A stretch of DNA of 64,000 nt from assembly GCA_021844945.1 (NCBI GenBank), contig JAKBSJ010000001.1, positions 310,001 to 374,000 on the forward strand, in the 5' to 3' direction. The notes beneath the pieces were generated by a model, which saw only the letters and a program-made list of their open reading frames with translations, was not told the origin of the DNA and did no database searches. A program made the position numbers and the translations under genes. Below, one piece after another: positions 26,935 to 47,920 of the stretch (positions within the stretch are counted from its first letter, which is position 1; every line of letters starts with the position of its first letter). The stretch comes from Thermoplasmata archaeon (GTDB lineage Archaea > Thermoplasmatota > Thermoplasmata > Lutacidiplasmatales > UBA184).

Positions 26935-27053
26935 CGCTGAGGGGGAGAGCTTCCGAGGGGGGAGATCCTCCCCTGCCTCCTTTGAACTCCCGCGATGCAT
27001 ACGCATCACCAGATCTCGAATCTGGCGCCTTGGCCGAGCTAGGCTACCTCAGC
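26935..27053 (-). tRNA. tRNA-Ser(CGA) with a 32-nt intron in the T-loop
   Basis: The 5' end is at 27053. The acceptor stem GCTGAGG/CCTCAGC, D-arm, anticodon arm (CCAGA, loop TTCGAGA, TCTGG; anticodon CGA) and a 5-bp long variable arm (GATGC/GCATC) fold normally. The T-stem GGGAG is followed by TTCAAA, then 32 extra bases (26949-26980), then T and the matching CTCCC. The discriminator is G at 26935 and CCA is not encoded in full. A TATA-like ACAAATACG lies about 25-33 bp upstream (27078-27086). Confidence 0.88.
26949..26980 (-). other. Intron in tRNA-Ser(CGA) between positions 59 and 60
   Basis: Removing these bases restores a 7-nt T-loop (TTCAAAT) and a perfect 5-bp T-stem. The boundaries can fold as a bulge-helix-bulge: bulge AAG (cut AA/G), central helix TTCA with GGAA (last pair A-G mismatched), bulge GCT (cut GC/T), and inner helix GAGG/CCTC. 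This is the motif recognised by archaeal tRNA splicing endonuclease. Confidence 0.8.
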
Positions 27054-39282: not shown

Positions 39283-40418
39283 GCGTCCGGATCGCGGGTA
39301 TCGGCATCGGTCGGTTCGGCCGTCGGACCGAGTCCGGTGTGGAGCTCGCGACGGACGCCGGGTTGCGCGCGATGGAGGACGTGGGGCGCAAACCGATCGA
39401 TCTGCTCGTCGTCGGAAACATGCTCGGGGAGGTTCTCGAGGAACGGGCGAGCCCCGTTCCCCGCCTCGCGTCCCGCCTGGGTCTGGAGACGGCCGCCGGC
39501 CTGAGAGTCGAGGCCGCTTCTGCGACCGGTGCAGCGGCCTTTCACGCGGGCGCCGCCGCGGTCGCCTCGGGGCGATCCGATCGCGCCATGGTGGTCGCCT
39601 ACGAGAAAATGACCGGTGCGCCGAGCCCTATCGTCGCACGAGCCCTCAGTCGCGCCCTCGCGCCCGAAGAGGTCGCTGTCGGCGGGACGATGCCGGCACT
39701 TTCGGCGATTATCGCCCAGCGATACGTGTCGCACTACCATGTCCCACTTTCGGCATTCGATCGCGTGAGCGTTCACATGCGCGCTCGGGCCGCGCTCAAC
39801 GCCGCCGCCCAGTTCACGAAGCCGGTCACGGAGGAAGAAGTGGCTCGAAGTCGGATCATTGCCTCCCCGCTCCGCCTGCTGCACTGCGCGGCGATCAGCG
39901 ACGGGGCCGTAGCGCTCGTCCTCGAACGCGGCGACGACGGCGCCGTCGTTCGCGGGATGGGCCAGGGGCTCGATGCGTTTCGAGTCGTGGACCGCCCGTC
40001 CCTCACTCGCTTCGTCGCAACGCGGATCGCCGCGAGGCGAGCCTACGAAATGGCGCACGTAACCCCGAAGGAGCTGGATGTCGCCGAGATTCACGATGCC
40101 TTCGCTCCGTTCGCGCTGATCGACGTGGAGGACCTCGGTCTGGCGGACGAGGGGACCGCGGCGGAGTGGTTTGACGAAGGAAAGGGAACTCGGAACGGCC
40201 CGACTTCCATCAACCCTTCGGGAGGAGTACTCGGTCGGGGCCACCCGGTGGGAGCCTCGGGACTCGTGGAGATCGCCGAGGTGGCGTCCCAGATCCGTCG
40301 CGAGGCGGGATCGCACCAGCTGGACCGACCGGTCCGGCTGGGCCTCGCGCAGTCGATCGGGGGACTCGCCTCCCACAACTTCGTTACGATCCTCGGGCAA
40401 GGGAGCGCGCCGGCATGA
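39279..40418 (+). CDS. Thiolase-family protein (archaeal acetyl-CoA acetyltransferase type) lacking the nucleophilic Cys
   Basis: The 379-aa protein follows the archaeal thiolase pattern: an N-terminal GIGIGRFGRR, an EIHDAFAPFALIDVEDLGL segment, and the C-terminal NPSGGVLGRGHPVGASG with the catalytic His. At the place of the acyl-accepting Cys (normally ACASG) it reads AASATG, so Ser81 replaces Cys. With the DUF35 gene overlapping downstream it matches the thiolase-DUF35 pair that works with HMG-CoA synthase in archaeal mevalonate synthesis. HMG-CoA synthase itself is not here. Activity is doubtful as written. Confidence 0.85.
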   Translation: MSVRIAGIGIGRFGRRTESGVELATDAGLRAMEDVGRKPIDLLVVGNMLGEVLEERASPVPRLASRLGLETAAGLRVEAASATGAAAFHAGAAAVASGRSDRAMVVAYEKMTGAPSPIVARALSRALAPEEVAVGGTMPALSAIIAQRYVSHYHVPLSAFDRVSVHMRARAALNAAAQFTKPVTEEEVARSRIIASPLRLLHCAAISDGAVALVLERGDDGAVVRGMGQGLDAFRVVDRPSLTRFVATRIAARRAYEMAHVTPKELDVAEIHDAFAPFALIDVEDLGLADEGTAAEWFDEGKGTRNGPTSINPSGGVLGRGHPVGASGLVEIAEVASQIRREAGSHQLDRPVRLGLAQSIGGLASHNFVTILGQGSAPA

Positions 40419-40747
40419 GCGCCCCCCCGCTCGTCCTCAGTCGATGCGAGGGATGCGAGCTGCTCTACCTCCCTACGCCGGGCCCGTGCCCCCGCTGCGC
40501 CTCGCGTCGTGCGACCCCGGTAGAGGTCCCTCCGACCGGCATCGTCCTCGCGGCGACCGAGGTGGAGAGCCCGGCGGAGGGCTGGCCCTCGCCGCACCGT
40601 TTGGCCCTCGTTGAAGTGGAAGACTCGGTACGGCTCCTCGCGATCGTGGAAGGCCCGTTGCCCGCGGCCGGCGACGCCGTAGAGGTGCGCCGGGAAGGCG
40701 AGGCCTACCACGTTCAGCGCCTCCGACTCGATCCACGGAAGGAATAG
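40415..40747 (+). CDS. DUF35 zinc-ribbon/OB-fold protein, thiolase partner
   Basis: The 110-aa protein has a rubredoxin-like zinc ribbon (CEGCELLYLPTPGPCPRCAS, residues ~11-30) and an OB-fold (VPPTGIVLAATEVE, ALVEVEDSVRLLAIVEG and GDAVEVRREGEAY). DUF35 proteins bridge thiolase and HMG-CoA synthase and bind CoA. It overlaps the thiolase gene by four bases (ATGA) and abuts the convergent tRNA-Ser(GCT) gene. Confidence 0.88.
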   Translation: MSAPPLVLSRCEGCELLYLPTPGPCPRCASRRATPVEVPPTGIVLAATEVESPAEGWPSPHRLALVEVEDSVRLLAIVEGPLPAAGDAVEVRREGEAYHVQRLRLDPRKE

Positions 40748-40862
40748 CGCGGGGAGGGGGAGTTTCCGGGAGCCGGCGCAGACCGTCTCCCCTTTGAACC
40801 CCCGAGGTGAAATCACCACTGGATTAGCAATCCAGCGCCTTACCGGGCTGGGCCATCCCCGC
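40748..40862 (-). tRNA. tRNA-Ser(GCT) with a 31-nt intron in the T-loop
   Basis: The 5' end is at 40862. The acceptor is GCGGGGA/TCCCCGC, the anticodon arm is CTGGA, loop TTGCTAA, TCCAG (anticodon GCT), and a long variable arm is present. The T-stem GGGGG is followed by TTCAAA, 31 extra bases (40762-40792), then T and CCCCC. The discriminator is G at 40748. A TATA-like TCCTTAAGGA lies about 25-30 bp upstream (near 40886-40895). The layout is the same as in tRNA-Ser(CGA). Confidence 0.88.
40762..40792 (-). other. Intron in tRNA-Ser(GCT) between positions 59 and 60
   Basis: Excision restores the TTCAAAT loop. The bulge-helix-bulge is as in the other Ser gene: bulge AAG, central TTCA with GGAA, bulge ACT, and inner helix GGGAG/CTCCC. 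The intron bodies of the two genes differ, while the splice-site bases are nearly identical. Confidence 0.8.
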
Positions 40863-40997
40863 TCGGCGTGGGGAGGTCGTTCCCTCCTTAAGGATTGGCG
40901 AGCCCCGAGGGCTCCGCACGGATCGGAACGCCCGGGTCGGTGATCCCGCGGCGTTCCCGTTATGTAGCCCGGTCCCGCTCGGCGACCGGGAGAGTCC

Positions 40998-45548: not shown

Positions 45549-46052
45549 ATGTATCCGCTCGGCGTTCGCCCGCGTATGATGCGACGATTCGATCCGTTCC
45601 GCGAAGGAGCGCCGATCGTCCCGGAGCTGTCCAGCGGCGCGGTCATCGCGACCGAGGATGGGAAGAAGGTCCTGATGCTGCACGAGATCGCCGAGGATCG
45701 CTGGTGCTTCCCGAAGGGGCACGTCGACCCCGGCGAGTCACTCGAGACCGCCGCTCGGCGCGAGATCCGGGAGGAGACCGGCCTCACCGACGTCCGGCTG
45801 GAGCGGGAGATCGGAGAGATCTCCTATCGGTACTACTCGTCGGAGCGAGGCACGAACATCCTGAAGGTTGCGGTCTACTTCCTGGCGCGATCCGCGGAGA
45901 CGCCCGTCCGCCTCGAACGGATCTTCGACCGGGCGGAGTGGGTCGCGACCGAAGCGGCGAGGGGTCGCCTCGCGTGGGAACGCGATCGAGAGATCATGGA
46001 TGGCGCGCGGCGCCAGCTCCGCAAGCCCCAACCCCCGGTCGAAAGCGCCTAA
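45549..46052 (+). CDS. NUDIX hydrolase
   Basis: The ~167-aa protein contains a perfect Nudix box, [20 protein letters not shown], followed by TGL. It also has the upstream [19 protein letters not shown] and the downstream [22 protein letters not shown], typical of Ap4A/diphosphoinositol-type Nudix enzymes. It probably hydrolyses a nucleoside diphosphate derivative. The start is uncertain (ATG 45549 or 45576). The stop overlaps the hutU stop by four bases (CTAA). Confidence 0.88.
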
Positions 46053-47719
46053 GGGATCCGGAAGCGCGCGCCCTTCGCGAGAGCGATCGACTCCGGGTAG
46101 CCCGCATCGGCATGGCGTGCGACGCCCAATCCGGGGTCGTTGTGCAGCGCTCGACCGATCCGTCGATCCGCCTCGGGAGTGCCGTCCGCGACGATGACAA
46201 GGCCCGCGTGGATCGAGTTCCCGATCCCGACGCCTCCGCCGTGATGAACGCTCACCCACGTCGCGCCGCTCGCAACGTTGAGCAGCGCGTTGAGGATCGG
46301 CCAATCCGCGATGGCATCCGAGCCATCCCGCATCTGTTCCGTTTCGCGGTACGGGCTCGCGACGCTCCCCGAGTCGTGATGGTCCCGACCGATCGCGATC
46401 GGAGCCGTCAGCTCGTGATCGTGAACCATCTGGTTGACCCGGTGACCAAAGCGCTCGCGGTCGCCGTAGCCGAGGTAGCAGATCCGCGCGGGCAGTCCCT
46501 GAAAGTGCACCCGCTCGCCGGCCAGGCGGATCCATCGCAGCAGATGGTCGTCTTCCGTGAACTCGCTTAGGATCATGCGATCGATCCGCCGAATGTCCTC
46601 CGGGTCGCCGCTCAAAGCGACCCAACGGAACGGTCCGCTGCCCCGCGCGAACAAGGGTCGGATGTAGTGCGGGACGTAGCCGGCAATATCGAACGCGTGC
46701 TCTACGCCGGCGTCCCGCGCCTGGGTCCGGAAATTGTTCCCGTAGTCGAACGCCTTGGCTCCTTGGGTTTGCATCGCTAGGATGGCGCGAGCTTCGTCCG
46801 CGATGGAGGCACGAACGTCCCGAAGGTACCCCTCGCGATCTTGCTCGCGCCGCCGCGACGCGGACTCGACCGACTCGCCGCGCGGGATGTACCCATAGAC
46901 AAGGTCGTGAGCCGCCGTCTGATCGCTCACAATGTCGGGCCGGACCCCCCGGCGAACCAATTCGGGATAGACGTCCGACGCGTTCGCGCACAGTCCCACG
47001 CTCAATGCTGTCCGGGATTGAGCGGCGGCCCGGACCCATTCGAGGGCCGTATCGAGATCCGGTGCTTCCCGCTCGAGGAAGCCCCGCTCGAGGCGGCGTG
47101 CGAGCGCGCGCGGGTCCACGTCGACGACCAGGGCTGAGCCTCCCAGCATGGTCACGGCCATCGGTTGGGCGCCCCCCATTTCGCCCAGACCCGAACTGAG
47201 GAACCAGCGACCCGCGAGGTCCGTGGCTCCAAACTCGATACGCGCGAGCGAGGCAAGGGTCTCGTACGTACCCTGGAGGATGCCCTGCGTTCCGATATAG
47301 ATCCAGCTTCCCGCGGTCATCTGGCCGTACATCGTGAGACCCCGCGCCTCCAGGTCCCAGAAGATGTCGTCCGTCGCCCAATGCGGGACGATCATAGCGT
47401 TCGAGATCAGCACGCGCGGGGCGTCGGGATGCGTAGGAAACACCCCGACGGCCTTCCCCGATTGAATCAGGAGAGTCTCGTCCGATCCCAGCGTTCGAAG
47501 TGCCGCGACAATATGATCGTACGCGGTCCAGCTGCGGGCGGCCTTGCCCCGCCCGCCATAGACGATCAGTCGGTCGGGGTCCCGGGCGACCTCGGGATCG
47601 AGGTTGTTCATCAGCAGCCGGAGCGCTGCCTCTTGGGGCCAGCCCCGACAAGAGATCGCCGTGCCGCGGGGCGCGCGGACGGGGCGGGCTACGCTGGAAG
47701 AGTCGACCATCGCCGTCAT
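46049..47719 (-). CDS. hutU: Urocanate hydratase
   Basis: The 556-aa protein is a full-length urocanase. It has [68 protein letters not shown] and the NAD-binding [22 protein letters not shown] region (each part shorter than a full motif). It also has the [13 protein letters not shown] and [17 protein letters not shown] signatures. It converts urocanate to imidazolonepropionate in histidine breakdown. No hutH, hutI or hutG is nearby, so the pathway genes are dispersed. Confidence 0.95.
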
Positions 47720-47847: not shown

Positions 47848-47920
47848 GCCGCCGTAGCTCAGTAGGTAGAGCGGCTGATTTGTAATCAGCAGGTCGGGAG
47901 TTCGATCCTCTCCGGCGGCT
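47848..47920 (+). tRNA. tRNA-Thr(TGT)
   Basis: A 73-nt uninterrupted cloverleaf: acceptor GCCGCCG/CGGCGGC, D-arm with AGTAGGTA, anticodon stem CTGAT/ATCAG with loop TTTGTAA (anticodon TGT), and T-arm GGGAG-TTCGATC-CTCTC. The discriminator is T at 47920. No intron and no encoded CCA. Confidence 0.95.

Follow-up and report, generated by a model that had tools for sequence, protein, structure and literature searches.

Introns at position 59/60 of many tRNA genes in Thermoplasmatota, predicted to be spliced by a fused EndA of a type held unsuitable for them

Introns in the T-loop of tRNA genes are already known from Thermoproteota and other TACK archaea, and intron-rich tRNAs from Asgard archaea; a table of tRNAscan-SE 2.0 holds 673 non-canonical introns in 217 archaeal genomes. 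The site between positions 59 and 60 is used by introns of Thermoproteota, Thaumarchaeota and Caldarchaeum, and junctions of permuted tRNAs have been placed there as well (PMC3218864). In passages of three reviews, non-canonical tRNA introns are linked to splicing endonucleases (EndA) that have a CSL or ASL loop, and euryarchaea with alpha4 or alpha2 enzymes are described as mostly canonical (PMC4033280, PMC4090602, PMC6379350), one of these passages describing only canonical introns for alpha4 and alpha2 Euryarchaeota (PMC4090602). In the same vein, alpha2-type EndA is said in a passage of PMC4033280 to cut canonical BHBs only, the alpha2 enzyme of Haloferax has a strict need for hBHBh' (PMC7714728), and the efficient removal of relaxed motifs is, in a passage of PMC6379350, limited to (alpha-beta)2 and epsilon2 enzymes and tied to the CSL/ASL loop. 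BHL cleavage has been credited to some homodimers (PMC8707768), including cleavage at 37/38 in full-length pre-tRNA by A. fulgidus (passage of PMC6379350), and multiple-intron tRNAs are listed for Methanopyrus and Methanothermobacter in an excerpt of PMC4033280. Another excerpt of that 2014 review names Korarchaeum cryptofilum as the sole archaeon combining an alpha2 EndA with non-canonical introns.

The introns described here share BHB architecture, shortness, the occurrence of more than one per gene and the use of D-arm and T-arm sites with the 59/60 introns of Thermoproteota, Thaumarchaeota and Caldarchaeum, but they lie in Thermoplasmatota, concentrate at one dominant site, are unrelated between different tRNAs of one genome and accompany a predicted fused alpha'2 EndA without CSL instead of an (alpha-beta)2 enzyme. 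Like the Asgard lineages Atabeyarchaeia and Freyarchaeia, these archaea stand outside Thermoproteota and have intron-rich tRNA sets with many non-canonical positions; there, however, 92-95% of tRNA genes are interrupted (passages of PMC11291895), whereas we found a T-loop intron in 13 of 40 genes, concentrated at one site. Korarchaeum cryptofilum likewise has an alpha2-type EndA together with non-canonical introns, but its enzyme has a CSL-type loop (passage of PMC4033280), which is absent from all 95 sequences that we aligned. With the canonical 37/38 introns of Euryarchaeota (e.g., Haloferax), finally, our cases have the alpha2-type enzyme and BHB recognition in common and differ by the position, 59/60, and by a central helix that in many genes is relaxed (A57-G). 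A search of titles, abstracts and text passages found no published report of 59/60 introns in Thermoplasmatota, and single cases may have been listed earlier, for example in supplements or GtRNAdb. What appears to be new is the setting: a known intron class, phylum-wide in Thermoplasmatota, alongside a type of enzyme considered unsuitable for it, with splicing itself predicted from sequence.

The starting point was a window of 64,000 nucleotides from a contig of a Thermoplasmata archaeon (JAKBSJ010000001.1), in which the following features are relevant:

40748..40862, minus strand: tRNA-Ser(GCT) gene with 59/60 intron; acceptor stem 7/7, G73
40762..40792, minus strand: 31-nt T-loop intron of tRNA-Ser(GCT), between A59 and U60
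40885..40892, minus strand: CCTTAAGG, TATA-like stretch, candidate promoter, 23-30 nt upstream of the tRNA-Ser(GCT) 5' end
26935..27053, minus strand: tRNA-Ser(CGA) gene with 59/60 intron
26949..26980, minus strand: 32-nt T-loop intron of tRNA-Ser(CGA); position and motif as in tRNA-Ser(GCT), body different
47848..47920, plus strand: tRNA-Thr(TGT) without intron, in-window control

A sequence-only reading of this window had assigned 31 extra bases at 40762-40792 to the 59/60 site of tRNA-Ser(GCT), and these coordinates proved exact: removing the insert gives the T-arm GGGGG-UUCAAAU-CCCCC with 5/5 pairs in the T-stem. In the BHB of this gene, the T-stem forms the outer helix, U54-A57 and GGAA form the central helix, AA|G and AC|U are the bulges, and GGGAG/CUCCC is the inner helix. 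The same reading had likened the splice-site bases (AA|G, GGAA, AC|T) to those of tRNA-Ser(CGA), which indeed agree apart from GC|T in the latter; it had also seen correctly that the two intron bodies differ and that the tRNA-Thr of the window, tRNA-Thr(TGT) at 47848, lacks an insert. Both serine tRNA genes were missed by ARAGORN and by Rfam at the gathering cut-off, so that two of the three tRNA genes of the window are invisible to these searches and ordinary tRNA finders overlook such genes. Judged from its sequence and placement, CCTTAAGG is a possible promoter of tRNA-Ser(GCT). At the other end of the gene, a convergent ORF of 110 aa (within 40415-40748 of the window) has its stop codon at 40745-40747, abutting the tRNA 3' end at 40748. 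A long minus-strand ORF at 46049-47719 of the window encodes what we take to resemble urocanate hydratase.

For a wider view of the motif, a covariance model (R1) was built from the first 10 genes of the window's own genome, all of which fit one structure: the T-stem as outer helix, a central helix in which U54-R57 pair with RGAA-like bases close to the intron 3' end, the bulges AA|N and NN|U, and an inner helix within the intron. The tRNA-Ser(GCT) gene, itself among the training sequences, scores 82.9 bits. Of 120 gene readings, 14 with an intact T-loop were dropped, and the remaining 106 were joined by 11 of 40 further readings to give 117 distinct genes. Once the intron is removed, the acceptor stem has 7/7 pairs in all 117 of them and the T-stem 5/5 in 116 and 4/5 in one; these are inserts outside 37/38 whose removal restores the cloverleaf, which is what marks a non-canonical BHB tRNA intron, here at 59/60. 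ARAGORN recognized 96 of the 106 genes after in-silico removal versus 18 before, the latter as shortened matches, and the 10 genes that it still missed all carry a second, D-loop insert.

Since the model that retrieved the genes of other genomes includes the BHB, pairing statistics lean towards this motif; so read, U54-C56 are all paired with the intron in 115 of 117 genes and all four central pairs form in 70, the fourth being otherwise mostly A57-G. Less exposed to this lean is the covariation of position 57 with the intron, where a C stands opposite G57 in 48 of 55 genes and opposite A57 in 1 of 62 (Fisher p = 4.8e-24), the partner of A57 being G in 39 and U in 21 of these 62. Within the family, all pairs of the central helix form in 4 of 13 own-genome and 22 of 53 family genes, and only the fourth pair is missing in 8 of 13 and 30 of 53, respectively, often as the non-standard A57-G. 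The family introns are thus close to canonical except for the frequent A57-G and are relaxed in many genes. Inner-helix pairing reached 0.83-0.87 versus 0.43 for shuffled introns. We also aligned 46 of the 53 family sequences, all from other genomes and outside the R1 training set, after setting aside the 7 that also have a D-loop insert; all five pairs of the inner helix show changes on both sides. In this alignment, whose pairing figures are biased towards the model because it was fitted to R1, the covariation score was 0.799 (0.225 shuffled, at most 0.222 slid) and 94.1% of cells were paired over the whole structure (62.8% shuffled, at most 53.3% slid).

The own genome is archaeal, 1.26 Mb in 5 contigs and 86.7% complete, and 40 tRNA genes were found in it. 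When genes with disturbed 3' halves were read, 13 of these 40 turned out to carry 59/60 introns of 25-38 nt, namely, Ser (GCT, CGA, GGA), Asn(GTT), Arg (TCT, TCG), Gln(CTG), Ala(GGC), Gly(TCC), Glu(CTC), Lys(TTT), His(GTG), and Leu(TAG); all have a 5/5 T-stem and a 7/7 acceptor stem once the intron is removed. Across 13 upstream regions, several positions between -38 and -26 are AT-rich. One further match (C5:45753) was dropped since it was not a tRNA on reading. With ten of the 13 genes outside serine, the introns are not confined to tRNA-Ser and the trait is therefore not a serine-tRNA property.

Relatives with EndA-bearing contigs were mostly Thermoplasmata MAGs, including UBA184 and AcS/SubAcS soil genomes, which a passage of PMC9287336 treats as "Ca. 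Lutacidiplasmatales", the family to which the window probably belongs as well. The same isoacceptors are interrupted in YP1.bin63 (14), UBA184 (13), AcS5-107 (14) and the own genome (13), the 14th being Asp(GTC), of which no gene was seen in the incomplete own genome. Across 389 genomes sampled from the phylum, each scored by 10 candidates so that all counts are lower bounds and a zero outside the family does not mean absence, strict 59/60 matches numbered at least 4-9 per genome in all 24 family genomes, and at least 60 of the 365 other genomes had one or more. The sister-family genome G014, of the same order, illustrates this floor with 0 matches in the survey table and 14 genes with 59/60 introns on reading. 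Of the 14 isoacceptors interrupted in the family, ten are so in G014 too (p ~0.0002, assuming ~45 isoacceptors and equal chances), and 13 of its introns measure just 13-15 nt, too short for an inner helix of more than 2-3 pairs. Its serine tRNAs have T-loop introns in Ser(TGA) and Ser(GCT), an intact Ser(CGA), and only an anticodon-region insert in Ser(GGA). Among 51 genes read outside the family, the Lys(TTT), Arg(TCT), and Lys(CTT) cases come from several families. T-loop introns were found in none of four serine tRNAs of G013 (same order) and none of three of G018 (same class), which speaks against a simple ancestral picture.

Both genes that BHB tRNA introns require, EndA and RtcB, are encoded in the own genome. 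The RtcB ligase is found at 3.9e-172 (PF01139), and the one EndA gene, with a frame of 344 aa at about 144.4-145.4 kb of G000:C3, has two PF01974 repeats in this one frame and matches archaeal EndA chains in the PDB, including the fused A. fulgidus enzyme. PF01974 likewise appears only as two neighbouring matches in five other family genomes (G391, G310, G403, G404, and G405, of which G404 is by coordinates the same genome as G001) and in G014, and each family genome checked is accordingly predicted to have only a fused EndA of the alpha'2 type. As expected for this type, the C-terminal repeat contains Y, H, and K, presumably the catalytic residues, in 95 of 95 aligned EndA sequences, a set in which at least three genomes occur twice (L085/L282, L080/L283, and L118/L286). 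By sequence alignment, none of the 95 has an insertion at the CSL/ASL loop: the distance from the YGS-like motif to the LSLIES strand is 9 residues, as in wild-type A. fulgidus. In chain 3p1y, presumably the A. fulgidus enzyme with a grafted CSL, this interval of the alignment is ~10 residues longer, which marks the place of the CSL. Going by the strict-substrate statements for alpha2 EndA, 59/60 introns with A57-G would therefore be poor substrates. G079 (same phylum, f48) has a 59/60 tRNA intron and, at a reported completeness of 99%, no PF01974 match, probably owing to a missing contig.

Taken as a whole, these are very probably non-canonical, protein-spliced tRNA introns at a predisposed 59/60 site, handled by EndA and RtcB, inherited vertically and not specific to serine. 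In the transcript, the T-stem would serve as outer helix while U54-U55-C56-R57 would pair with the RGAA-like stretch near the intron 3' end, leaving AA|N and NN|U as two 3-nt bulges and the intron body as an inner hairpin; the fused alpha'2-type EndA would cut both bulges, and RtcB would join the exons to restore UUCAAAU. The conserved T-loop UUCRAA would thereby act as a ready 5' half of a BHB that any insert before position 60 ending in approximately NGAANN could complete. As every archaeal T-loop comes with this half, the 59/60 site would recur in many tRNAs, and this is the reason we offer for the repeated use of one site.

How the introns came to sit in so many genes can be read in other ways. 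The sequence-only reading had left open whether they are homologous within the serine family or were gained at a preferred site, and proposed upkeep by the long variable arm or by a maturation step specific to tRNA-Ser. Three of the four serine isoacceptors of the family do carry the intron, conserved for Ser(GCT), Ser(CGA), and Ser(GGA) in the relatives inspected; of the further serine tRNAs to which the reading had pointed, Ser(GGA) has it and Ser(TGA) lacks it, the latter in all four Lutacidiplasmatales genomes read, the own one included. That ten of 13 intron genes are not serine genes leaves a serine-specific maturation step unsupported and refutes the serine family as sole cause, and nine of these ten are class I tRNAs without a long arm. 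The six most similar intron pairs of the own genome include no Ser-Ser pair. An interpretation specific to serine is wrong, and descent and upkeep within that family are highly improbable; the earlier proposal holds in so far as the intron is of BHB type and occupies a preferred site. Recent spreading by transposition within a genome would explain one identical site in many tRNAs and has a model in the similar introns of diverse Thermoproteales tRNAs (passage of PMC4033280). Such similarity was not found here: introns of different isoacceptors are no more alike within a genome than between genomes (0.218 versus 0.215, p = 0.38), which counts against common serine descent too and gives no sign of recent spreading. 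The same isoacceptor across genomes, by comparison, reaches 0.345 versus 0.218 for different isoacceptors within a genome (p = 1.6e-12), and the variance of intron length is 1.9 within isoacceptors versus 8.2 overall. Fast divergence of 30-nt sequences could mask an old burst. The sharing of interrupted isoacceptors across the family and, for ten of 14, with G014 also counts against transposition, which we consider unlikely. Most 59/60 introns were probably inherited vertically within each isoacceptor in Lutacidiplasmatales, a pattern that suggests repeated use of one predisposed site.

The inserts might also stay unspliced, in degenerate or pseudo-tRNA genes or in tRNAs that tolerate a long T-loop. 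Standard finders do miss these genes, but their stems are intact, the exon-intron pairing covaries and, for some tRNAs, Asn and His among them, the own genome showed no copy other than the interrupted one, which makes this reading very hard to sustain. A somewhat different question is whether the alpha'2 EndA would act alone or together with a helper protein or an overlooked second subunit of the endonuclease. The association of relaxed substrates with (alpha-beta)2 and epsilon2 enzymes bearing CSL or ASL, as drawn in passages of PMC6379350, would favor such a partner, and MAGs, the own one being 86.7% complete, could have lost its gene from view; the PF01974 matches in the own genome, the five family genomes and G014, always two neighbours and nothing else, argue against it, and we regard an additional factor as unlikely.

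Along with the splicing reading preferred above goes a bolder one, that a loop-less alpha'2 EndA processes relaxed T-loop introns across the phylum, both those with A57-G in Lutacidiplasmatales and the mini-introns of 13-15 nt in a sister family, perhaps since UUCRAA acts as a half-substrate; to this we give an even chance. If true, the CSL/ASL loop would not be the general key to non-canonical introns, and Thermoplasmatota, with their many T-loop introns and a loop-less alpha'2 EndA wherever checked, would form a natural counter-example to the loop rule of the reviews.

Some genes carry inserts at further sites. The mini-introns of G014 (L302-L307, L309, L310, L312, L313, L320, L057, and L258) are the shortest seen and mostly end in GAAAA, and several of their genes also have an insert in the anticodon region. 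In G013, a tRNA-Ser(GCT) with intact T-loop (L333) has an insert of ~40 nt close to where the anticodon stem begins. Additional D-loop inserts occur in the own genome in Lys(TTT) (L149), Leu(TAG) (L151), and the initiator tRNA-Met (L023), and in relatives in Arg(GCG) (L197, L212, and L232) and Pro(TGG) (L214). The combination of D-loop and T-loop inserts in Lys(TTT) also appears in families f2, f3, and f7 (L255, L259, and L058) and therefore looks old.
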